Below, one piece after another: positions 4,641-34,214 of a DNA stretch of 64,000 nucleotides. Under the pieces are notes generated by a model. It searched no databases. It was not told the origin of the DNA and worked only from the letters and a program-made list of their open reading frames with translations. A program made the translations under genes and the position numbers. Every line of letters begins with the position of its first letter. Position 1 is the stretch's first letter. This stretch comes from Candidatus Fermentithermobacillaceae bacterium (GTDB taxonomy: Bacteria; Bacillota; Sulfobacillia; Fermentithermobacillales; Fermentithermobacillaceae): assembly GCA_018052455.1 (NCBI GenBank), contig JAGPNE010000002.1:1-64000 (forward strand). Reading direction: 5' to 3'.

Positions 4641-4689
4641 ACGCGTAATCGAATAGTGCAAAACACAAACCGTTGAACAAGACTAGTAA

Positions 4690-4932
4690 GAATGAGCACC
4701 TGCATTCAGAGAGCCACTAGATGATGAGAATGCGGCTGCAGGTTCACTCTGAATGGACTTGTGAGGGAGGCCCGAAATCCTAACAAAGTAGGCGCCTACG
4801 GAGTTCCTGTCCGTTACCATAAGGATACATATGACAGTATGTACAATGAGCGGGCGTTAAGTACGTCAATTGGGGTGGCACCGCAGAAGCGAGAGCTTTT
4901 GTCCCTATAGAGGGGACAAAAGCTCTTTTTTT
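4690..4932 (+). promoter_or_regulatory. T-box leader, probably tRNA-Trp responsive
   Basis: The leader carries the T-box core GGGGTGGCACCGCAG (4872-4886), which pairs with the uncharged tRNA acceptor end. It is followed by a perfect 14-bp terminator hairpin (4892-4905 with 4913-4926) and eight T residues. Stem I begins near 4690; a short helix (CAGAG with CTCTG) precedes a loop reading GAATGGACTT, in which TGG (4754-4756) is the likely specifier, i.e. tryptophan. The trpE gene lies directly downstream. Starvation for charged tRNA-Trp should favour read-through. The T-box call is firm; the specifier is inferred from position and context. Confidence 0.93.
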
Positions 4933-7062: not shown

Positions 7063-8075
7063 TAAAAGAGGGGATAAGGCGACTTTTGAATGGGGAAGAC
7101 CTTTCTTTCGAAATGACTAGATTGGTCATGGACCAGATAATGAGCGGTAATGCAACAAACGCACAGATATCGGCGTTTATAACGGCTATGCGCATGAGAG
7201 GCGAAACTATAGATGAAATTACTGCTTGCGCTGTGATAATGAGAAGACATGGTGCAAAACTCAAGCATGACAATGATGTTTTAGACATTGTAGGAACTGG
7301 AGGAGACGAGGCCCACACGTTCAACATATCTACTGCCTCTGCCTTAGTAGTGTCTGCAGCGGGCGTACCAGTTGCGAAGCACGGCAATAGGAGCGTTTCA
7401 AGCAAGTGCGGCAGCGCCGACGTGTTAGAAGCGCTGGGCGTGAAAATAGATGTACCTGTATGTTTGAGCGAAAAAATCCTGGCGGAAATTGGCCTGTGTT
7501 TCATGTTTGCTCCCAACTATAATTCCTCAATGAAATATGCGGCGCCTGTTAGAAAAGAAATCGGGGTGCGTACGATCTTCAACATTCTCGGACCCCTCGC
7601 TAGCCCTGCGAACGCTGAATACTTGTTATTGGGCGTTTACGATGAAAATCTTGTAGAGCCTCTGGCTGGCGTTCTTTCAAACCTTGGTGTGAAGAAAGCT
7701 ATGGTAGTTCATGGGCACGATGGTTTGGATGAAATATCCCTAACAGCTCCGTCTACAGTCTGTGAAGTAAACGATGGTCGCCTAAACAGTTTCTTTTTGG
7801 ATCCGCGCCAGTTTGGTCTTGAACTGTGTCAGCCTTCTGACCTAAAAGGTGGGGGTCCCGAGGAAAATGCAGACATTGTGAGACGCATTCTAGCGGGCGA
7901 GAAGGGACCACAGAGAGATATTGTGCTGCTTAATTCGGCGGCGTGTATTTACATGTTTTACCACAATATGACACTGAGAGAGAGTCTGACACTAGCGGCG
8001 GAAGTCATAGATAGCGGCAGGGCGCTTCGGCAGCTGCAAGAGTTCGTTCGATTATCAAATGACGTGGAAAACTGA
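7059..8075 (+). CDS. trpD: Anthranilate phosphoribosyltransferase
   Basis: TrpD transfers phosphoribose from PRPP to anthranilate. The 338-residue protein has the family motifs DIVGTGGDEAHTFNIST (about 80-96), KHGNRSVSSKCGSAD (about 109-123, the glycine-rich PRPP and anthranilate site) and VHGHDGLDEIS near residue 222. Length is normal (about 340). The ATG overlaps the trpG stop by four bases, with SD AGGTGG nine bases upstream, indicating translational coupling. Nothing unusual was seen. Confidence 0.96.
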   Translation: MIKEGIRRLLNGEDLSFEMTRLVMDQIMSGNATNAQISAFITAMRMRGETIDEITACAVIMRRHGAKLKHDNDVLDIVGTGGDEAHTFNISTASALVVSAAGVPVAKHGNRSVSSKCGSADVLEALGVKIDVPVCLSEKILAEIGLCFMFAPNYNSSMKYAAPVRKEIGVRTIFNILGPLASPANAEYLLLGVYDENLVEPLAGVLSNLGVKKAMVVHGHDGLDEISLTAPSTVCEVNDGRLNSFFLDPRQFGLELCQPSDLKGGGPEENADIVRRILAGEKGPQRDIVLLNSAACIYMFYHNMTLRESLTLAAEVIDSGRALRQLQEFVRLSNDVEN

Positions 8076-20991: not shown

Positions 20992-21325
20992 GAAAATAAA
21001 AAATCCGCCCCTGGAAGGGACGGGTTCTTTGCCCGCGGTACCACCCTTTTTGATACTTGATGATCAAGCTCCGCTCTACAGGTACGGCGACGTAACCTCC
21101 ATGGTGAATACTTCAGCTAATCTATATCCACGGTTGTAGCTACTCGCGATACCGTCTTCCTTTTAACGGTGGAAGCTCCGCCTGAGTCTACTGCTGCCAA
21201 AAACCTGCAGGTTCAACCGGTAGCTCCTGGGCGTATTCGGCGGGTCTACCGACCAGGTCGCACCAGCCCCTGGCTCTCTTTGCGGGTCAAACCGCCTACT
21301 ATTCCCGATCATCGCCTGCTCTACG
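20992..21325 (-). promoter_or_regulatory. T-box leader of the aro operon, probably tRNA-Tyr responsive
   Basis: On the minus strand the leader contains a perfect T-box core AAAAGGGTGGTACCGCGG (21033-21050). It is followed by a terminator (CCGTCCC with GGGGCGG, loop of five) and an A/T-rich tail ending near 20992. Stem I starts near 21310 with AATAGTAGGCGG, whose GGCGG pairs with CCGCC. Directly after that helix comes GAATACGCC, so TAC (21233-21235) is the likely specifier, meaning tyrosine. A TTGACA box at 21345-21350 may be the promoter -35, but its -10 is poor. Operon content (aroH, DAHP synthase, tyrA) fits tyrosine control. Confidence 0.93.
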
Positions 21326-24567: not shown

Positions 24568-25395
24568 TTGTTCAGGATAACGTCTGGAATGATTGCAGCG
24601 TTACTCTTTCACCTTGTCCCAGCCGTTTCATCCCCATGTGTCTGTTCTTTTACTCTGACTTCTAGAAGATAGAGTTGCATGATTTGTATAGATTATCAGG
24701 ATAGGGTTCTACAGATCTTTTGAGGCCAAGCCCAAAACTGTATGTTTGCGGTTCGAGTTTGCGTTCGTGTCTCACACGAAAACTCAGAGAGTTGGAGAAG
24801 TCGCCAGCGCTTACCAGCTTACTGTTGGGGATAATGTGAGGATATTTGATTATGTGAAAGGGCTAGATGATGATCTAGTCTCATAATTGGTGAAAAAACT
24901 CAATTTGGATCCGCAAGATATCCCAATGGAGGCAACCGGGTTCTGATCCTAGATGGACCAACTAAGGAGACCGATCCCGTTTGAGAGGCCTATATTTTCG
25001 ACAAATTCACAAGAACTTCACAGAATCGAACGACAATTATCATACCCACAGGCTGAGCCTGGTTAGGTTCGTAAATAGAATAATTGTTCGCCAAGACGCG
25101 CAAATAGAGAGATTCGACCCTCATGAAAACCCGTTAGGAGGAAGCGATTACCACAGGATGATATGGAAATTACAGAGCGAGAGATATTTGTCTTGAACAT
25201 GCAGACAAGTTTTGCATGTGCTCTTCTGTCTAGATTGGCCAGTTGGGTACTCGAATCATGTAGAATTTGTCGCTTTACGTCGAGAGAAAGACTTGCTTTG
25301 TTTACACTACCTGATAGAATCGAGTCAACAACCGCGTTTTTGTTTGTTTGAACGAAAGAGCTTTGACGTTTGCAAAGAGGCATTATGGAGTAATG
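24568..25395. other. Long gene-poor spacer with a possible decayed reading frame
   Basis: About 830 bases between thrB and the first c-di-GMP riboswitch hold no convincing gene. On the plus strand one frame stays open from 24691 to a TAA at 24884 (it contains VGEVASAYQLTVGDNV), then continues for 19 codons to a TGA at 24944. This has no start codon of quality and may be a pseudogene remnant. I do not recognise the family. Confidence 0.4.
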
Positions 25396-25475
25396 ACCTT
25401 TTGGCAAACCTAGGGGAACCTGGGGACGCAAAGCCATAGGGCCTCTCCCTCTTGGGGTGGCAGCCTGGCTGCAAT
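25396..25475 (+). promoter_or_regulatory. Cyclic di-GMP-I riboswitch (GEMM), copy 1
   Basis: The conserved GEMM-I pattern is present: GGCAAACC, then a hairpin CCTAGG-GGAA-CCTGGG with a GNRA-type loop, then GGGGACGCAAAGCCATAGGGCCT, and finally GGTGGCAGCCTGGCTGC. It lies about 260 bases before the adhesin ATG. The arm CCTCTCCCT (25442-25450) is complementary to AGGGAGAG (25489-25496) and, with one wobble, to the adhesin ribosome site AGGGAGGG. This suggests a translational switch. Confidence 0.93.
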
Positions 25476-25736
25476 GATTGAACCTGACAGGGAGAGAAGA
25501 GGTTTATGGCCATGGGTTCCTTAATTTGTGTACGTTGTATCATTACATGTTTTGCTTCGCGTGGTCTAGTTTCCAATCTTCTCTCCTTTATCACATCCTG
25601 CAGGCAAGGATCTTTGTTTCCTGTTGGGTCCGTATTGTAGACCTATGTACACTCTATATGTCATGTGTACTTGCGGCGGCCCGGTAGAACAAAGGTGCAG
25701 TTTCGCCTCAGAGATGCATAGGGAGGGTTGAGTATC

Positions 25737-28328
25737 ATGAAGAATAACGGAAAACTCCTAGTTACAATATCTATCTCTATTGTTCTCGCTATTTTACTCA
25801 GTAATGTTTGTCTAGCGTACGCCGAAACTATCGCGGCTTTTGACGATCCAGATCCGATTCCCTTTGATTCAGACCGATCTGAAGATCCTGCTCCTACCTA
25901 TGAACGCCAGTCAGATGAGTTTGAAGAGTCTTTAGATCAGTACGATTTGCCAGATGGGGATGTTGCAGAAGGTTATATAGACCCCATCCAACAACCAGAC
26001 GAGCCTAGTGAACGGCAAGGTCGTGCTGAGACGGGGACTGAGGTAGATACTTCATTGGAAGATGAATCTCCAGGCGACATTAGCGATTCAGATGGAAACG
26101 AAGAGCCCGAACTACCCGAACTAGATGTTCCAGAGCACATGGATGAAGACGAATCTGATTTGGGTGAGGGAGTCAATGAGGCCTCTGATGATGTAGATTC
26201 TACAGATGAGCCACCAGGTGATGAAAAAGACCTGGATCCGGATGAGGAATTGGATGTAGATGAATCTGCAGATCCGGTCTATGTCAGCGTAGTCATCGAG
26301 CATATAGTGAAATGGAACGAAACTGAGCGATTAGTAGGTAATGAAGTGCTGAAAAACATTTATGTGGGCGCTTCGGTTGTGGGTGCGGTTTATGCCCTTA
26401 CCGAACCGGGCCTAGAGTTTATCGGAAGCGACCCGGATGTGATTTTGGCAGGAGAAGATGAAAACCTTATACGGCTTTACTACATAATAGATGCTCCAGA
26501 TATTCCACTGCCCGAGGCTGCCGACTTTGCCCCGGGAGAGGGGGTTGAAATAGATTCCCCTCACATTGAAGTTTTCGAGGGAGTTTTGAAAAGTACGCCA
26601 GGGATCAATTCAAACAAGTATGTTTTGCAATGTGACCAATGGGGAAATATGGATTGGCCGGAGCCTGGGTCCCTTCTATTGAACAAGGGCGCTGAAGGGG
26701 TTGAAGGCAGCGGATACAAGTGGGACATCACTTTGACTATTGAAGGCAAGAATCTGATTGAAACTACTGATATCGTTTTGGTTATAGACTGTTCCAATAG
26801 CATGCAAAATGACAACAAGATCACCAGAGCAAAGGAAGCGGCCCAAGCATTTGTGGAAAGTCTTTTGACTCCGGAAAGCCAAGGGCAACTAAGGATAGCT
26901 GTCGTATCGTTTGGCAGTTATGCAAAAACAGAATGCAATTTCTGTGATTACAATCAAAAAAGCACCCTGGTTAATGCCATAAACAACATACACGCTAACT
27001 GGGGTAATTACGGCGGTACCCATATGCAAGCCGGGATTAGGAAAGCTAGAGGTTTGTTTAGTAATAGCAGTGCAGATCACAAGGACATGGTGATTCTTGG
27101 AGACGGTGCAGCGACGTACAGCTACAATATAAAACAGTTTTCAGAGAGTTATTTTGATTTTTGGTATAGAAACTCCTACTTGGGTGATCGCTATTACAGG
27201 AGCAACACTAGCATTCCCGAGAGTAGTTTTAACTATAACGGGACTATAGGTGATGGAACGAGAGAATACTACTGGTACTATCAGGACGTGGAGTACCTTG
27301 ACCCTTACCACTATTCTTATATCTACCACATATACTACATTCGTCACGGAGCCAGTGCAGTAGCCGAAGCCGGTTTTGCCAAGAATCAGGGAATTGAAGT
27401 GTACTCCATAGCTTTGTCTGCAGGTTCCGAAGGCGAATGGGCGCTAAGCCAGATAGCGAACGATGGCAAATACTACGAAACCTCTGATCCTGATTCGTTA
27501 GAGCAAATCTTCCTCGAGATTTCTGGAAGAATATGTTACGCGGCCAGTAACGCTGTGGTGACAGATCCCATTGGAGAAATGTTCTATATACCTGGCATCA
27601 CAGGGGAAAACGTAGATGAATTGGTAGAGGTTAGTCACGGACAAGTACAGTACGATGAATCTTCTAGGACTCTTAGGTGGGATATTGGCACTATTGCGGA
27701 AGACAGTATATACACAATGAAATATCGTTTATATATGAGTTTTGATGCTGACTTAGGGGTAGCTTACCCTACAAATGGCGATACTCCTATCGACTATCAA
27801 AACATAGACGGGAATAACGCCAGAAAATACTTTGAAGTACCCACCTGCAAGATGAGAGGGATAACCTTCGAAAAACTCTTAGACGACACGCTATACCAAG
27901 ATACCGAATTTGACGTTGTCCTCCAAGGACCAGAGGGTCCTTACCAAAAGACGTGGACTGTTTCCCTTACACCTGGAAGCAGAAAGACTGTCAAAGGCTT
28001 GTTGCCTGGAACCTACACTGTGCGTGAGATAGTGCCTATGAATTTCGAACTTATTGGTATCTATACAGGAGAAGATTGTTTGGGCGGTACTGGTGGCATA
28101 TGCAGTCTGGAAGTATCTGATGAAGATTGGAGCATAGACGTTTCGGTTACCAATCGTCGTTCAAACGATGGTTGGTTTTGGGATGATGACCAGGTTACTA
28201 ATACTTTTCAGGTTGCAATTTGGAGCGGCGGCATATGTGGATCGGATTTGATCCTGAACAATCTAAGGTGTGCTGCGTTGCCTAAACTTTACTATGCAGA
28301 TTCTGAAATGCCTAGTTTGGATGTTTAG
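25737..28328 (+). CDS. Secreted adhesin-like protein with acidic N-region, VWA domain and SpaA/Cna-B-like domain
   Basis: The 863-residue product has a signal peptide ending near AYA-E (residue 30), then about 155 residues very rich in Asp and Glu. A von Willebrand A domain (about 340-580) has a MIDAS-like DCSNSM at Asp351 and GGTHMQAG. It contains an unusual Tyr-rich insertion (about 461-537, for example YYWYYQDVEYLDPYHYSYIY). A SpaA/Cna-B-like fold follows (about 706-800: ITFEKLLDD, LPGTYTVREI). No LPXTG anchor is seen at the C-terminus. ATG 25737 sits nine bases after GGGAGGG; a TTG nine bases earlier abuts the SD. It is probably a surface adhesin under c-di-GMP control. The 260 bases before it hold no clear gene. 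Confidence 0.85.
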   Translation: MKNNGKLLVTISISIVLAILLSNVCLAYAETIAAFDDPDPIPFDSDRSEDPAPTYERQSDEFEESLDQYDLPDGDVAEGYIDPIQQPDEPSERQGRAETGTEVDTSLEDESPGDISDSDGNEEPELPELDVPEHMDEDESDLGEGVNEASDDVDSTDEPPGDEKDLDPDEELDVDESADPVYVSVVIEHIVKWNETERLVGNEVLKNIYVGASVVGAVYALTEPGLEFIGSDPDVILAGEDENLIRLYYIIDAPDIPLPEAADFAPGEGVEIDSPHIEVFEGVLKSTPGINSNKYVLQCDQWGNMDWPEPGSLLLNKGAEGVEGSGYKWDITLTIEGKNLIETTDIVLVIDCSNSMQNDNKITRAKEAAQAFVESLLTPESQGQLRIAVVSFGSYAKTECNFCDYNQKSTLVNAINNIHANWGNYGGTHMQAGIRKARGLFSNSSADHKDMVILGDGAATYSYNIKQFSESYFDFWYRNSYLGDRYYRSNTSIPESSFNYNGTIGDGTREYYWYYQDVEYLDPYHYSYIYHIYYIRHGASAVAEAGFAKNQGIEVYSIALSAGSEGEWALSQIANDGKYYETSDPDSLEQIFLEISGRICYAASNAVVTDPIGEMFYIPGITGENVDELVEVSHGQVQYDESSRTLRWDIGTIAEDSIYTMKYRLYMSFDADLGVAYPTNGDTPIDYQNIDGNNARKYFEVPTCKMRGITFEKLLDDTLYQDTEFDVVLQGPEGPYQKTWTVSLTPGSRKTVKGLLPGTYTVREIVPMNFELIGIYTGEDCLGGTGGICSLEVSDEDWSIDVSVTNRRSNDGWFWDDDQVTNTFQVAIWSGGICGSDLILNNLRCAALPKLYYADSEMPSLDV

Positions 28329-28388
28329 TAGAGTGGTTTTTTCTGAGTCGATGTAAGCAGGCAAAAATACGATGGGTATGGGTGTAAA

Positions 28389-28934
28389 ATGAGGCACAAA
28401 ACGATCATGGTTTCTTTAATAGCGATAATCTGTCTTGCATCAGGGGTAACCTATTCTTGGTTCACGGCTAGAGAAACTGGAGAAAACAGACTTGATATGG
28501 GTACGGTGGAGGTCGAAGTAGTTGAAGATTTTCAGTCTGTGACGGACGCTGTGAGAAATGTTGAGTACAAGAAAACAGTGCAAGTACAGAGCAATGGCAC
28601 TAAAAACACATATGTGAGAGTGAAACTTTTTCCAGAGTGGAGCGAACCGAGTTTGCCCGTATCTAACGTGCAGTTTAACCTAGCTGATAATTCAGATTGG
28701 GTACTCCATGGGGACGGGTATTTCTACTTCAAGTACTATCTTACGCAAGGGCAGGTGACTAGCGAACTTCTTCAGAGCGTGACTTTTACAGATTTGGGCC
28801 CTGAATACAGCGGCAAAACTCTCAGTGTGAAAGTATTGGTCGAAGGCGTTCAAACTACTCATGATGCTTGGAAGGAGGTATGGGGGCTTACAGAATTACC
28901 ATTTGAACCGGATATGCCCTGGAATCCGAGTTAG
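28389..28934 (+). CDS. SipW-dependent type signal peptide protein (TasA/camelysin-like)
   Basis: This 181-residue secreted protein has a short hydrophobic signal with SGVTYSWFTARETGENR, the pattern cut by the SipW-type signal peptidase in TasA/camelysin-like proteins. The mature part is a beta-rich domain with YVRVKLFPEWSE and a conserved WVLHGDGYFYFKYYL. A very similar domain recurs in the protein encoded at 29073. TasA relatives polymerise into biofilm fibres, so a fibre or pilus subunit is likely but not shown. SD is weak. It lies 60 bases after the adhesin gene. Confidence 0.82.
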   Translation: MRHKTIMVSLIAIICLASGVTYSWFTARETGENRLDMGTVEVEVVEDFQSVTDAVRNVEYKKTVQVQSNGTKNTYVRVKLFPEWSEPSLPVSNVQFNLADNSDWVLHGDGYFYFKYYLTQGQVTSELLQSVTFTDLGPEYSGKTLSVKVLVEGVQTTHDAWKEVWGLTELPFEPDMPWNPS

Positions 28935-28971
28935 TAGTTTCAGAGATATTTTCTGTCACATCTAATTGACA

Positions 28972-29050
28972 TTATTGGCAAACTTAGGGAAACCTAAGGA
29001 CGCAAAGCTATAGGGCCTCTCCCTTTAGGGTGGCAGCCTGGCTGCAAAAA
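28972..29050 (+). promoter_or_regulatory. Cyclic di-GMP-I riboswitch (GEMM), copy 2
   Basis: It matches the GEMM-I consensus: GGCAAACTTAGG-GAAA-CCTAAGGACGCAAAGCTATAGGGCCT, with a clean GAAA tetraloop, then GGTGGCAGCCTGGCTGC. The next gene starts only about 25 bases later. Its SD region contains AGGGAGA, which is complementary to TCTCCCT (29018-29024 region) in the riboswitch arm, so ligand binding could expose or hide the ribosome site. A TCTAAT -10-like box lies at 28969-28974. Confidence 0.93.
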
Positions 29051-29072
29051 AAGCAGAGAGGGAGATACCGAA

Positions 29073-29639
29073 ATGAAAAAGAGAAATTTAGTGTTAGGTT
29101 CGGTTGTGGTTCTAGCGGCACTCTTGGTAGTAGGTGGCACAATGGCTTGGTTCACAGCAGAAGCTGATCCAGTAGAGAATAAGTTCACCGCTGGAAAGGT
29201 TGAAATTGAACTGCATGATGAGTTTCCAGAAGACGGCATACCGAACGTAAACCCTGGTGATGAACATTCTAAGGTAGTGTACGTGAAAAACACAGGTACC
29301 ATACCCATATACGTTAGGGTTAAGTTGACACCTCAGTGGAGTGGCTTGCCAGAGGAGTTTACACCTAGCGATGAGGTTGTTACATATCCGATCGCCCAAG
29401 GAGCCAAATGGGTTTTGCATACAGACGGTTGGTATTACTTCACGGAGAGCGTCGCTGTTGAGTCAGAGACTGAGCACTTAATCGATAAGGTCATATTCGC
29501 TGGCAAGGATATGACCAACGAGTACCAGGGTGCAACGTTTACCTTGAAAGTAGAAGCCGAAGCGATCCAGGCAACTAATGGAGCGGCTGAAGGCGAATGG
29601 GGAATCAATCCGGAGTTACTTAGGCCAACAACTCCCTAA
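29073..29639 (+). CDS. SipW-dependent type signal peptide protein (TasA/camelysin-like), riboswitch-controlled
   Basis: The 188-residue protein has signal MKKRNLVLGSVVVLAALLVV followed by GGTMAWFTAEADPVENKFTAGKVEIEL, the hallmark N-terminus of SipW substrates. The mature domain contains NPGDEHSKVVYVKNTGTIPIYVRVKLTPQW and WVLHTDGWYYF, paralogous to the preceding gene product. It is the first gene after the second c-di-GMP riboswitch, so its level should follow c-di-GMP directly. It may be the main fibre subunit. No sipW peptidase gene is seen in the window. Confidence 0.86.
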   Translation: MKKRNLVLGSVVVLAALLVVGGTMAWFTAEADPVENKFTAGKVEIELHDEFPEDGIPNVNPGDEHSKVVYVKNTGTIPIYVRVKLTPQWSGLPEEFTPSDEVVTYPIAQGAKWVLHTDGWYYFTESVAVESETEHLIDKVIFAGKDMTNEYQGATFTLKVEAEAIQATNGAAEGEWGINPELLRPTTP

Positions 29640-29723
29640 CGGGATTCTAGGGCAGTTGCACTGAATTCTGACCTTTTGTTGGCCATTTGGTGTGGCATTT
29701 TGGATTCATGGATAAAGCGAAAA

Positions 29724-29850
29724 GGCCGCCGTCTATCAGCCTGCAGTTCTTTGCATGAGTACGTAGTCTGGCCTGTAGCGGTGGCCTGGTTTCATAGAGA
29801 AACTTGGGTCGCATACCGAAAGGATGTGCGACAACCAAGAAGAGTTGGTG
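29724..29850 (+). promoter_or_regulatory. Structured leader of the LPXTG protein gene (unclassified)
   Basis: Three helices can be drawn. GGCCGCCG (29724-29731) pairs with CGGTGGCC (29779-29786). GTCGCAT (29808-29814) pairs with GTGCGAC (29826-29832), capped by CC-GAAA-GG. ACCAA (29834-29838) pairs with TTGGT (29845-29849), covering the GGTGG ribosome site. It does not match a riboswitch class I know. The 216-base spacer holds no other gene. Confidence 0.4.
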
Positions 29851-29855
29851 GTCAT

Positions 29856-30650
29856 ATGGATCGAGCATCAAGATTATATAGGGCAATTGGGTGCTTCCTC
29901 CTAGTAGCAGGTGTGGTGTTTTCGCTTGTTCCTACTCGGGTCTACGCTCATCCAGCTGATCTGGAGCTCAGAGGAACGCATTTGGGCTTGGAACTCGTAC
30001 CTCCGGCTCCGGTTTCCAGACTGTTTGAGCTTTCCAACATGAGCCCTGGTGACTCTGAGGAAAAAGCTCTCACTATTAGGAACGGGTATTCGGAGTCTTT
30101 TACTCTATACATGACGGCGATCAGGGGAGACGCAGCGCAGGGGCCTAACGACCTTTTTGATGTCTTGCACGCGGTCGTGACGTTTAGGGGGACGCAATTT
30201 TACAATGGGCTCTTACGGGATTTTGCAACGTCGTCTACTTATCTGGGATTATTGGAGCCTGGCACTTCAGACAACCTAGTGGTCACGGTAAGTCTGCCTG
30301 GCCCTGGGACAGGCAATGACTACCAGGGTTGCAGTGCTTCAGTGCAATGGGTTTTTACTGCCGAATCCAAGGACCCTGAATTGCCGTATGAACCTCCTAC
30401 TGAACCTACCGAAGAAATACCCGAAGAAGAAGTCCCTCAGACTCCTCCTTCAGACGAACCAGAAACGTCCGATGACCAGGTTATAGAAGAACCGGGTGAA
30501 ATCACGGAAGAACTGCCTGAACCGATAGTACCGGGGGCCGGGCCTGTTCCCCTTCCCAAAACCGGTGAGATATCCCATTGGGTGTTCTATGGAGTAGGGG
30601 GAAGCATTACCCTATGTGGTGTTGCATTAGGATTCAGAAAAAAGGAATAG
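29856..30650 (+). CDS. LPXTG-anchored surface protein with TasA-like ectodomain
   Basis: From ATG 29856 the product is 264 residues. It has a signal peptide ending near VYA-HP, an ectodomain resembling the preceding fibre proteins (SPGDSEEKALTIRNGYSESFTLYMTAI, then VVTVSLPGPGTGNDYQG), a Pro/Glu-rich spacer (about 175-225) and a sorting signal LPKTGE with a hydrophobic segment and RKKE tail. A sortase should attach it to the wall, where it could serve as the base of a fibre. The frame extends 60 codons upstream, but that segment is not protein-like and overlaps the structured leader. A sortase gene follows. Confidence 0.87.
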   Translation: MDRASRLYRAIGCFLLVAGVVFSLVPTRVYAHPADLELRGTHLGLELVPPAPVSRLFELSNMSPGDSEEKALTIRNGYSESFTLYMTAIRGDAAQGPNDLFDVLHAVVTFRGTQFYNGLLRDFATSSTYLGLLEPGTSDNLVVTVSLPGPGTGNDYQGCSASVQWVFTAESKDPELPYEPPTEPTEEIPEEEVPQTPPSDEPETSDDQVIEEPGEITEELPEPIVPGAGPVPLPKTGEISHWVFYGVGGSITLCGVALGFRKKE

Positions 30651-30654
30651 AAAA

Positions 30655-30691
30655 ACAAAGCAGGGTTGAGTTATCCTGAGCCCTGCTTTGT
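30655..30691 (+). terminator. Hairpin between LPXTG gene and sortase gene
   Basis: An 11-bp perfect stem (acaaagcaggg 30655-30665 with ccctgctttgt 30681-30691) is followed by a weak T-tract (tgcaatctttt). It may attenuate transcription into the sortase gene. Confidence 0.6.
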
Positions 30692-30712
30692 TGCAATCTT
30701 TTGAGGGTGCCA

Positions 30713-31312
30713 ATGAGGAGAGCTGTTTCTAGTGTATTAATAGTCATTGGAGTGTTGGTGATCATCTTTCCCTCTCTTCGGGTCGTCTATTTTGAACGCA
30801 AACAGGACGATATCCTAGAAGCATGGGAAAGCCTTACGTGTCACCTGGAAGAAGACGCCTTCCATGAAGGATCTGAGGCTCAAGACTTCTGGGGAAGCAT
30901 CGAACTAGAAGATATAGATGGGATCTTGGAGATCGAGAGAATAGATCTCAAGGAACCCGTTTTCAAGGAAGTAACAGAGACCAACTTGTACGTGGGTGTT
31001 GCCAAGATCCAGACCGAATCCGAACTAGGTGCCATTGGCAACTATGCAATAGCAGGGCACAGAAACCGCACCTACGGCAAACATTTCAACAGGTTGGGAG
31101 AGCTTGAGAAAGGTGACCTGATAAAGGTCTCATGTGCTGAGGAACTGTACACCTACGAAGTATACGAAGTGCTCATCGTTAAGGCAGAAGACAGCTGGGT
31201 TATACAGGGAAACGGAAAAGATAGCCTAATTACCCTAGTCACATGCGACTACAGCGTGAAGCCTACAGGTAGGCTTGTGGTAAGAGCTAAGAGTATTGAA
31301 CAGGGGCACTAA
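30713..31312 (+). CDS. Sortase (class D-like)
   Basis: Sortases cleave LPXTG-type signals and join proteins to cell wall or to each other. The 199-residue protein has one N-terminal membrane segment (SVLIVIGVLVIIFPSL). The catalytic His lies in IAGHRNRTYGKHF (about 120), the catalytic Cys in TLVTCDYSVKPTGRLVVRA (about 180), and the Arg in that same segment. The length and TLVTCDY motif suggest class D. ATG 30713 is five bases after GAGGG. The adjacent LPKTGE protein is the obvious substrate. Confidence 0.92.
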   Translation: MRRAVSSVLIVIGVLVIIFPSLRVVYFERKQDDILEAWESLTCHLEEDAFHEGSEAQDFWGSIELEDIDGILEIERIDLKEPVFKEVTETNLYVGVAKIQTESELGAIGNYAIAGHRNRTYGKHFNRLGELEKGDLIKVSCAEELYTYEVYEVLIVKAEDSWVIQGNGKDSLITLVTCDYSVKPTGRLVVRAKSIEQGH

Positions 31313-31448: not shown

Positions 31449-32885
31449 CTATTTCGTAGGATCTTTGCCCATAATAAAGGTGTATATGTCATCACACACG
31501 GCCTTAATGTTCTCCTCACCCAAGTATGCCATGTGACCAGACTCATAGCCCTTTACGAAAACGCGATCCATAGGTAGACCAGAATGGTTCAGAGTATAGT
31601 ACAATATGCCGATCTGAGTGCAGATATCATACCAACCATTGACGAAGAATGTTCGCATAGTGGGCGTCCGACGCATAGCCGAGCTGAGGCTCTCCGAGGT
31701 ATTTCGGCCCTTGATATCATTGTTCCAACTAGACCACAGAGAGTGAGAATTGACAAAGTTGCGGTCTGTTTTGATACCCAGCATAGGGAAAACTTCACCG
31801 CAGAGCACTGACTGGAAGAACGAGTTGTACTTTCCTTCCGCCGGGTCGTCGTGTACTCCCCACTTCTGCTCATCTAACAACGGCGTGTACAGAGGCCGAG
31901 TAATCCTGCCGTCCAAACGAGCCACGGAACGGCCTTTATGGCGTATGACTTCGCTGCGATACTCTACGTCCTCCAGAACTAGCGCACGCTTATCCAAGTA
32001 CTCACGGGAAACCCCAGTATAGTACATAACACGTTCGATTACGTGCTCCCTAGCTTCTCCTTTCAAGGATTCTCCTTGATACAAGGCCAGGAGGTACTCG
32101 GTATCAGCAAATTCTTTGGCTTCGGCTACGAATTCCTCGACCGTCTGGTTGGAAGGATGATTATGGTACCAGTTGACTGCGGCAAGAGTGGGGAAGGCCA
32201 AGACAGCCGAGTAGACAGGGGGTTTATCCCCGAAGTGTTTGCCAACAGTGACTGTGTTTCCGATCATAACCAGACCGTCAAAGGTGACGCTGTATGCACG
32301 GTCCGAGCCTGAGAGAGACCCCATACCAGCGACGGTGCTAGCCCTGGTGCAACCATAGCTTTCTCCTATCAGGTACTTGGGACTTTCCCAGCGGTTATAG
32401 CGGGCCAACCAGCTCTGTACGAAAGTGAGAAAGGCTTCGGCATCCGGTTCTATGCCGTAGAACATATCCTTTTTGGATTCGTCGAGCAAACGGCCAAAAC
32501 CTGTGCCCACTGGATCCACCAGGACTAGGTCGGCGATATCTAATAGGCATTGTTCATTATCGCAGTATTCATAAGGAGGGAGTGGAAGGCAATCGTCGTC
32601 AACTTCACCATATTTTACTCGCTTTGGACCCAAGAAACCGACGTGCACCATCATAGAAGAAGTGCCAGGACCACCGTTAAAGCCGAACATAACGGGGCGG
32701 GATTTCAGATCTTCAACGTCGGAACGGAAATATGAATACGAAAATATCGAAGCAATGGGTTTTCCTTCATCGTCATAAAACACGTTGTCTTCGCTTACGG
32801 TGTGGTAGGGTATTTTGACGCCGCGTAAGTTGATACTTCCTTCTCCGACAAAGCGAGAAGGGGTAAAGATATCTGTTTTGAGCAT
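31449..32885 (-). CDS. Serine carboxypeptidase-like peptidase, family S10
   Basis: The 478-residue protein has the S10 layout: the oxyanion-region motif FNGGPGTSSM, the nucleophile in IGESYGC (about Ser176), Asp in NGWYDICT (about 418) and His in ESGHMAY (about 450). DPVGTGFG is also conserved. Most S10 enzymes are secreted, but no signal peptide is visible, so it may act in the cytoplasm on peptides. SD AGGGAGGAG precedes the ATG. It is transcribed towards the sortase locus and looks like an independent gene. Confidence 0.9.
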   Translation of the reverse strand: MLKTDIFTPSRFVGEGSINLRGVKIPYHTVSEDNVFYDDEGKPIASIFSYSYFRSDVEDLKSRPVMFGFNGGPGTSSMMVHVGFLGPKRVKYGEVDDDCLPLPPYEYCDNEQCLLDIADLVLVDPVGTGFGRLLDESKKDMFYGIEPDAEAFLTFVQSWLARYNRWESPKYLIGESYGCTRASTVAGMGSLSGSDRAYSVTFDGLVMIGNTVTVGKHFGDKPPVYSAVLAFPTLAAVNWYHNHPSNQTVEEFVAEAKEFADTEYLLALYQGESLKGEAREHVIERVMYYTGVSREYLDKRALVLEDVEYRSEVIRHKGRSVARLDGRITRPLYTPLLDEQKWGVHDDPAEGKYNSFFQSVLCGEVFPMLGIKTDRNFVNSHSLWSSWNNDIKGRNTSESLSSAMRRTPTMRTFFVNGWYDICTQIGILYYTLNHSGLPMDRVFVKGYESGHMAYLGEENIKAVCDDIYTFIMGKDPTK

Positions 32886-34099: not shown

Positions 34100-34200
34100 G
34101 CGATGAGCATTTGCGGGGGAACTCCTAGGAGTTGAGAAGGTAGAACCTTACCCTTTGAACCTGTTGGTCAATACCATCGTAGGGAAGCAAACTAGCTGAG
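34100..34200 (+). promoter_or_regulatory. TPP riboswitch (THI element)
   Basis: The conserved THI pieces are present in order: GCGGGGGAACTCC, GAGTTGAGAAGG, ACCCTTTGAACCTG and GTAGGGAAGC. A terminator hairpin follows directly, and the thiD-C-M-E genes lie downstream. TPP binding should favour termination. Confidence 0.95.
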
Positions 34201-34214
34201 CGTTTGAACTTTAG

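Follow-up and report, generated by a model that had tools for sequence, protein, structure and literature searches.

In Bacillus subtilis, tapA-sipW-tasA provides TasA-fold subunits that are processed by SipW and form fibres by donor-strand exchange, together with an accessory protein that is thought to start the filament (PMC9674648, PMC10151520). Clostridium perfringens has sipW-bsaABCRSD, which gives a SipW-dependent filament and in which BsaA is expressed under the control of the BsaRS two-component system and of temperature; srtB adjoins sipW, deletion of SrtB was without effect on polymers or pellicle, and neither a VWA protein nor a riboswitch has been reported (PMC7395162). In Bacillus cereus, the CapP-TasA-CalY system has heteropolymers of TasA and CalY along with a chaperone-like protein associated with the wall (PMC13082335). 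Here we discuss a locus that resembles each of these in part. It lies at 25393-31312 in a stretch of 64,000 nucleotides (the window) from a Candidatus Fermentithermobacillaceae bacterium, an uncultured anaerobe, on contig C20 of a 30-contig genome of 1.54 Mb (G000). The order, all on the + strand, is a cyclic di-GMP (c-di-GMP) riboswitch (RS1), a gene for a VWA protein, a gene for a SipW-type subunit, a second riboswitch (RS2), a second subunit gene, a gene for an LPKTG protein and a sortase gene, and all of these parts, first proposed in a first-pass annotation made from the sequence alone, were confirmed in that order. We give a probability of about 0.6 to the reading that the locus encodes a TasA/camelysin-type fibre, rooted in the cell wall and carrying a VWA adhesin, which is made at high c-di-GMP.

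The likeness to B. subtilis is in the subunits and in the presence of an accessory protein. However the accessory protein here is itself TasA-like, with an ordinary signal peptide, an LPXTG signal and its own sortase, and the locus further includes a VWA adhesin and c-di-GMP riboswitches. To our knowledge TapA of B. subtilis is neither LPXTG-anchored nor riboswitch-controlled. In the case of C. perfringens, BsaA belongs to the nearest named subunit family (TIGR04090). The B. cereus system differs in being explicitly sortase-independent, with a disordered C-domain holding CapP to the wall (PMC13082335). With regard to the VWA protein, the tip adhesins GBS104, RrgA and SpaC and the type V pilus tip Mfa5 also have a VWA domain with a metal ion-dependent adhesion site (MIDAS) within an immunoglobulin (Ig)-like domain, followed by stalk domains (PMC7835359); Mfa5 however bears a type IX secretion signal, which the window protein does not, and the latter sits among TasA-type subunits. 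For regulation the closest cases are Clostridioides difficile CD2831 and CD3246, sortase-anchored surface proteins under c-di-GMP riboswitch control, but there the adhesin genes follow class II transcriptional ON switches, the zinc protease has a class I OFF switch, and there is no TasA-like fibre (PMC4591827, PMC6200980). In the searchable literature, with most subscription journals and preprints outside it, we found neither SipW-type fibres with an LPXTG base and a sortase of their own nor a c-di-GMP riboswitch ahead of a TasA-type gene. Each component is from a known family, and it is the combination that appears to be undescribed.

The base of the proposed fibre would be the LPKTG protein, encoded at 29856-30650 (+), for which ATG 29856 is best read as the start in place of that of a longer open reading frame beginning with TTG. 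Behind an ordinary signal peptide it has a TasA-like domain, then a stalk rich in Pro and Glu and an LPKTG sorting signal (TIGR01167 21.4 bits; LPKTG at 30552-30566). The ectodomain had been said to resemble the SipW-type subunits, and this was borne out by profile comparison with hhalign (98.8%, E 1.3e-16, against 0.8% for a negative control of the anchor with the sortase profile) and by an AlphaFold2 model (predicted local distance difference test, pLDDT, 66), for which the top three PDB fold matches in Foldseek were all TasA. The adjacent sortase gene is at 30701-31312 (+; PF04203 3.3e-29), with ATG 30713 as its likely start, and His120, Cys182 and Arg191 are invariant in the family alignment. 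In the whole genome we found exactly two LPXTG proteins, each of them an anchor of this kind, and exactly two sortases, each pair being adjacent in one of two paralogous clusters, and these counts support the pairing of sortase and anchor proposed earlier. With no further sortase in the genome, and an anchor next to each of the two, gene content indicates a sortase that serves the anchors alone. The second cluster (truncated subunit, anchor, sortase; C16:443899-446007, L092:15900-18008) is at a contig edge, and the sibling genome G002 has the same type of cluster at L093. In two other genomes the anchor (L059 in G025, L067 in G102) has VPATW or APPTW (xPxTW) in place of LPXTG despite an adjacent sortase, which suggests a shifted sortase specificity.

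The anchor and sortase genes are separated by a strong hairpin at 30654-30692 (+; RNAfold -27.7 kcal/mol). Strong hairpins of differing sequence are found at this place in seven clusters (the window, L092, L093, L053, L054, L125 and L126), and perhaps they reduce sortase expression relative to that of the structural genes. Scans for sigma-70 promoters and terminators gave no signal exceeding that of shuffled sequences.

The two subunits, at 28389-28934 (+; subunit 1, probably the minor one) and 29073-29639 (+; subunit 2), both pass the SipW signal model TIGR04088, subunit 1 with 21.6 bits for a cut-off of 19, and subunit 1 also aligns with the other subunits. Subunit 2 belongs to the BsaA family TIGR04090 (85.7 bits, cut-off 60) and matches Peptidase_M73/camelysin (8e-10), whereas subunit 1, at 43.6 bits, falls short of the BsaA cut-off; subunit 2 is our candidate for the major fibre subunit. 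When the subunit profile was run against the whole PDB the best match was TasA (8AUR, E 4e-10; 5OF1, 6.5e-10), and the alignment spans the N-terminal region that is the donor strand in TasA fibres (PMC9674648, PMC10151520). The first-pass annotation had noted that the processing peptidase is missing from the window. We considered whether SipW is truly absent from the genome and rejected this, as a SipW-type signal peptidase is encoded on contig C4 (C4:10361-10927; TIGR02228 119.8 bits), and it is predicted from the signal sequences to be able to process both subunits. This gene is also at a contig edge and the contig breaks right after it in both G000 and G002, which suggests that C4 and C16 are joined, with SipW heading the second cluster; most related clusters carry SipW inside the cluster. 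SipW, anchor and sortase are present in G002, and genome searches of another sibling, G001, found none of SipW, VWA protein, anchor and sortase. Near the anchors of L137 and L138 there are SipW-like domains in long proteins (about 670 and 760 amino acids), whereas the usual SipW has about 190.

The order of the genes is kept in the family and far beyond it. A search of 84,980 species genomes with a narrow anchor alignment gave 35 loci, including loci in Tissierella, Tepidanaerobacter, Gudongella, Anaeromonas and Clostridium sp. Cult2, and with those from other genome searches there are 37 anchor loci, which we annotated with models built here. The sorting signal was found in 31, a count biased upward because the LPKTG stretch was one of the two search patterns; subunits were found in 29, SipW in 23, an adjacent sortase in 13, a transglutaminase gene in 9 and a VWA gene in 8, several of the loci being cut by contig ends. 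The commonest order across Bacillota is (VWA)-SipW-subunit(s)-anchor-(sortase), and the full VWA-SipW-subunit-anchor-sortase order is kept in G010, G012 and Tepidanaerobacteraceae. Among 12 genomes with a cluster that lacks an adjacent sortase, 10 have a sortase elsewhere. Cultured carriers include Tissierella creatinophila DSM 6911, Anaeromonas frigoriresistens and Tissierella sp. P1.

Both riboswitches are c-di-GMP-I aptamers that exceed the gathering score of the Rfam covariance model RF01051, which is 35. RS1 (25393-25476, +; 55.7 bits, E 3.5e-8) is upstream of the VWA gene, about 250 nucleotides (nt) from its start, and RS2 (28967-29049, +; 64.4 bits, E 2.7e-10) is inside the operon directly before subunit 2, with 24 nt to the start codon. 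They are probably duplicates, as they are about 85-90% identical in an alignment judged by eye. A 44-codon open reading frame (25508-25642) starts just 3' of RS1 and may be a leader peptide or the remnant of a lost gene; the aptamer could mask its Shine-Dalgarno sequence. There are only four c-di-GMP-I riboswitches in the 1.54 Mb genome, the remaining two preceding a transglutaminase-like gene (C5) and flgB (C16), and the genome encodes three GGDEF proteins.

The related clusters were surveyed with Rfam scans and with a covariance model that we derived from these RNAs. A riboswitch of the c-di-GMP-I or I-GGC type is placed some 20-55 nt ahead of a subunit gene in 13 clusters, mostly with another gene of the operon on its other side, and the position of RS2 is thus matched in 12 clusters besides this one. 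The proposed association with c-di-GMP riboswitches holds at homologous positions. Class II riboswitches are found ahead of the VWA homologues in G003 and G006 and ahead of the sipW operon in G179, so the same functions have recruited different riboswitch classes. In L058 (G175) a VWA homologue has tandem c-di-GMP-I riboswitches (7470-7715, - strand) some 1 kb away on the other strand. The other riboswitches on these loci lie mostly ahead of a gene for a secreted transglutaminase-like protein, often immediately 3' of the anchor or sortase gene. Such a gene with its own c-di-GMP riboswitch was seen at L001/L071 (G000 C5:7623-8609), L112, L125, L126, L131, L132, L135, L138, L141 and L143, often directly downstream of the fibre cluster, and its product may cross-link the fibre or act as a processing enzyme. 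That c-di-GMP-I riboswitches can stand in tandem ahead of transglutaminase-like genes in Bacillota has already been reported, and in that report we found no link from them to fibre genes (PMC12452182).

With regard to the direction of the switch, the expression platform of RS2 (29017-29065, +) has a variable P3 arm, CUCUCCCUU (29017-29025), that pairs with the Shine-Dalgarno region GAGAGGGAGA (29056-29065). The predicted unpaired fraction of the Shine-Dalgarno rises from 0.13 in the free RNA to 0.78 once the aptamer is formed. A shuffle control matters here because forcing the aptamer tends by itself to open the Shine-Dalgarno, by a mean of +0.14; with the arm and linker shuffled, an equal change was reached in 2 of 400 trials (0.5%). 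On these folding predictions it is quite probable that RS2 is an ON switch, in which the Shine-Dalgarno is freed on binding of c-di-GMP. The putative platform of RS1 (25489-25727, +) comprises AGGGAGAGAAGAGG (25489-25502), a complementary pyrimidine stretch near 25578-25590 and the Shine-Dalgarno of the VWA gene, AGGGAGGG (25720-25727). The case for this platform is weak, with a predicted change from 0.01 unpaired in the free RNA to 0.40 with the aptamer formed, which is smaller with a different transcript end. As the flgB riboswitch on C16 is followed by a terminator-like hairpin, motility is probably switched in the opposite sense to the fibre, as would fit C. difficile, where flgB is shut off by c-di-GMP.

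The VWA protein (25737-28328, +; 863 amino acids) has a low-complexity N-terminus, a VWA domain inserted in a GBS104-like Ig domain, a CnaB-like C-terminal domain and a tail with the pattern GWFxDD..N.F.V. The Pfam matches are to VWA (1.4e-18) and to the GBS104-like tip-pilin Ig domain PF21426 (2.3e-14), and alignments place the MIDAS residues at D351xS353xS355, T428 and D456. A sequence profile matched Mfa5 in the PDB (6to1, E 1.2e-28), and with an AlphaFold2 model the top seven PDB matches in Foldseek were all pilus tip adhesins (Mfa5, SpaC, RrgA, PitA and GBS104). The protein had been proposed as a VWA/SpaA adhesin; the adhesin and VWA parts are supported, but SpaA was not matched by Pfam, and the CnaB/SpaA-like C-terminal domain is seen only through a weak DUF7601 match in relatives and the invariant Lys713, Glu764 and Asn806, a set which we take to be typical of CnaB isopeptide domains. 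Gram-positive pilus tip adhesins carry an LPXTG signal. The window protein has none, and by Pfam and alignment it has no SLH or type IX-like loading signal either, ending in a conserved tail that is not an anchor; loss of an LPXTG signal by frameshift was considered and rejected, as relatives have the same anchorless tail. In G003 and G005, family members without the fibre genes, the homologous VWA protein is fused to three SLH wall-binding domains. The homologue in G006, which is cut by a contig end, shows MBG repeats besides the VWA domain. The main argument for a role on the fibre is this lack of an anchor in genomes with the fibre genes, as would be expected of an adhesin that a fibre carries; a protein with no anchor of its own also needs some partner to remain on the cell. 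We infer from this distribution that the fibre carries the VWA adhesin, at its tip or otherwise bound.

The assembly that we propose would start with binding of c-di-GMP to RS2, on which the aptamer would fold, the Shine-Dalgarno of subunit 2 be released and translation increase, and RS1 would act likewise on the VWA gene, though this is less certain. SipW would release the subunits and the sortase would link the base protein to peptidoglycan. The base would then supply the first strand of the filament, as TapA does for TasA, and subunits would add by donor-strand exchange with the sortase not involved. The VWA protein would bind the filament, most likely at the free end, and the co-regulated transglutaminase-like protein encoded on C5 may cross-link the fibre, while at high c-di-GMP the flagella would be shut down. 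What can be read from the sequence is which parts are there, to which families they belong, that their order is conserved and where the riboswitches lie; assembly, tip position, cross-linking and the sign of regulation are predictions drawn from it. We would more tentatively, and at somewhat less than even odds, go further and propose an undescribed class of fibre, widespread in anaerobic Bacillota, with sortase-free TasA-type filaments on a sortase-anchored TasA-like base, an anchorless VWA tip, a riboswitch within the operon and cross-links made by a co-regulated transglutaminase.

Several observations weigh against our reading. About half of the clusters have no riboswitch ahead of the subunit gene, the fold test was clearly ON in other clusters only for L112, L137 and L138, with most neutral and three slightly reversed, and class I c-di-GMP riboswitches in C. 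difficile are almost all OFF switches that act by termination (PMC6200980). The same fibre might thus be turned off by c-di-GMP, but we think this unlikely, as the 24 nt between RS2 and the start codon are too few for such a terminator mechanism, the RS2 folding with its shuffle control favours ON, and the switches at the VWA genes of G003 and G006 and at the sipW operon of G179 are of class II, which is ON in C. difficile. The VWA gene adjoins the fibre genes in only 8 of the 37 loci, some being cut by contig ends, and is therefore not essential to the module. Its absence from most related clusters, the SLH-bearing VWA proteins that stand alone in some relatives and the TasA and BsaA matrices that are largely released elsewhere (PMC7395162) would all fit co-regulated but separate products, in which case the TasA-like matrix, the LPXTG protein and the secreted VWA protein would not be parts of one structure. 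There is perhaps one chance in five of this, given that an anchor of TasA fold is encoded together with subunits in 29 of the 37 loci and that the anchorless VWA protein needs a binding partner on the cell. The confidence of the anchor model is modest, and viral jelly-roll proteins score similarly by fold, so the match to TasA by fold would be insufficient without the profile match. In C. perfringens the nearby sortase SrtB is dispensable for BsaA polymers and pellicles (PMC7395162), though attachment to the wall is a different step. A classical pilus, with pilins polymerised covalently by sortase and the VWA protein loaded as the tip, is very improbable, since despite the resemblance to RrgA, GBS104 and SpaC, the pilus-type locus with its own sortase and the scores of that sortase with class C, D and E profiles as well, the anchor alone has a sorting signal, the subunits and VWA protein have neither this nor a pilin motif and so could not be polymerised by the sortase, the subunits are SipW-type and TasA-like, and no sortase is needed for polymerisation of BsaA, the nearest subunit that has been studied (PMC7395162).

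Elsewhere in the window, a gene for a serine carboxypeptidase of the S10 family, unusual for such a bacterium, is directly downstream of the cluster on the - strand (31449-32885). Two T-box leaders and a thiamine pyrophosphate riboswitch ahead of a thiamine gene cluster (4664-4909, 21013-21321 and 34105-34203) are ordinary.

The wall attachment of TasA-type filaments is unsettled, the best-studied cases being described as sortase-independent or largely released, and a base that shares the fold of the filament and comes with a sortase of its own offers, for a large group of anaerobes, an answer that can be tested directly. The riboswitch that recurs before the subunit gene would link c-di-GMP to fibre production in a simple way, and as the cluster is carried by cultured species it can be tested now.

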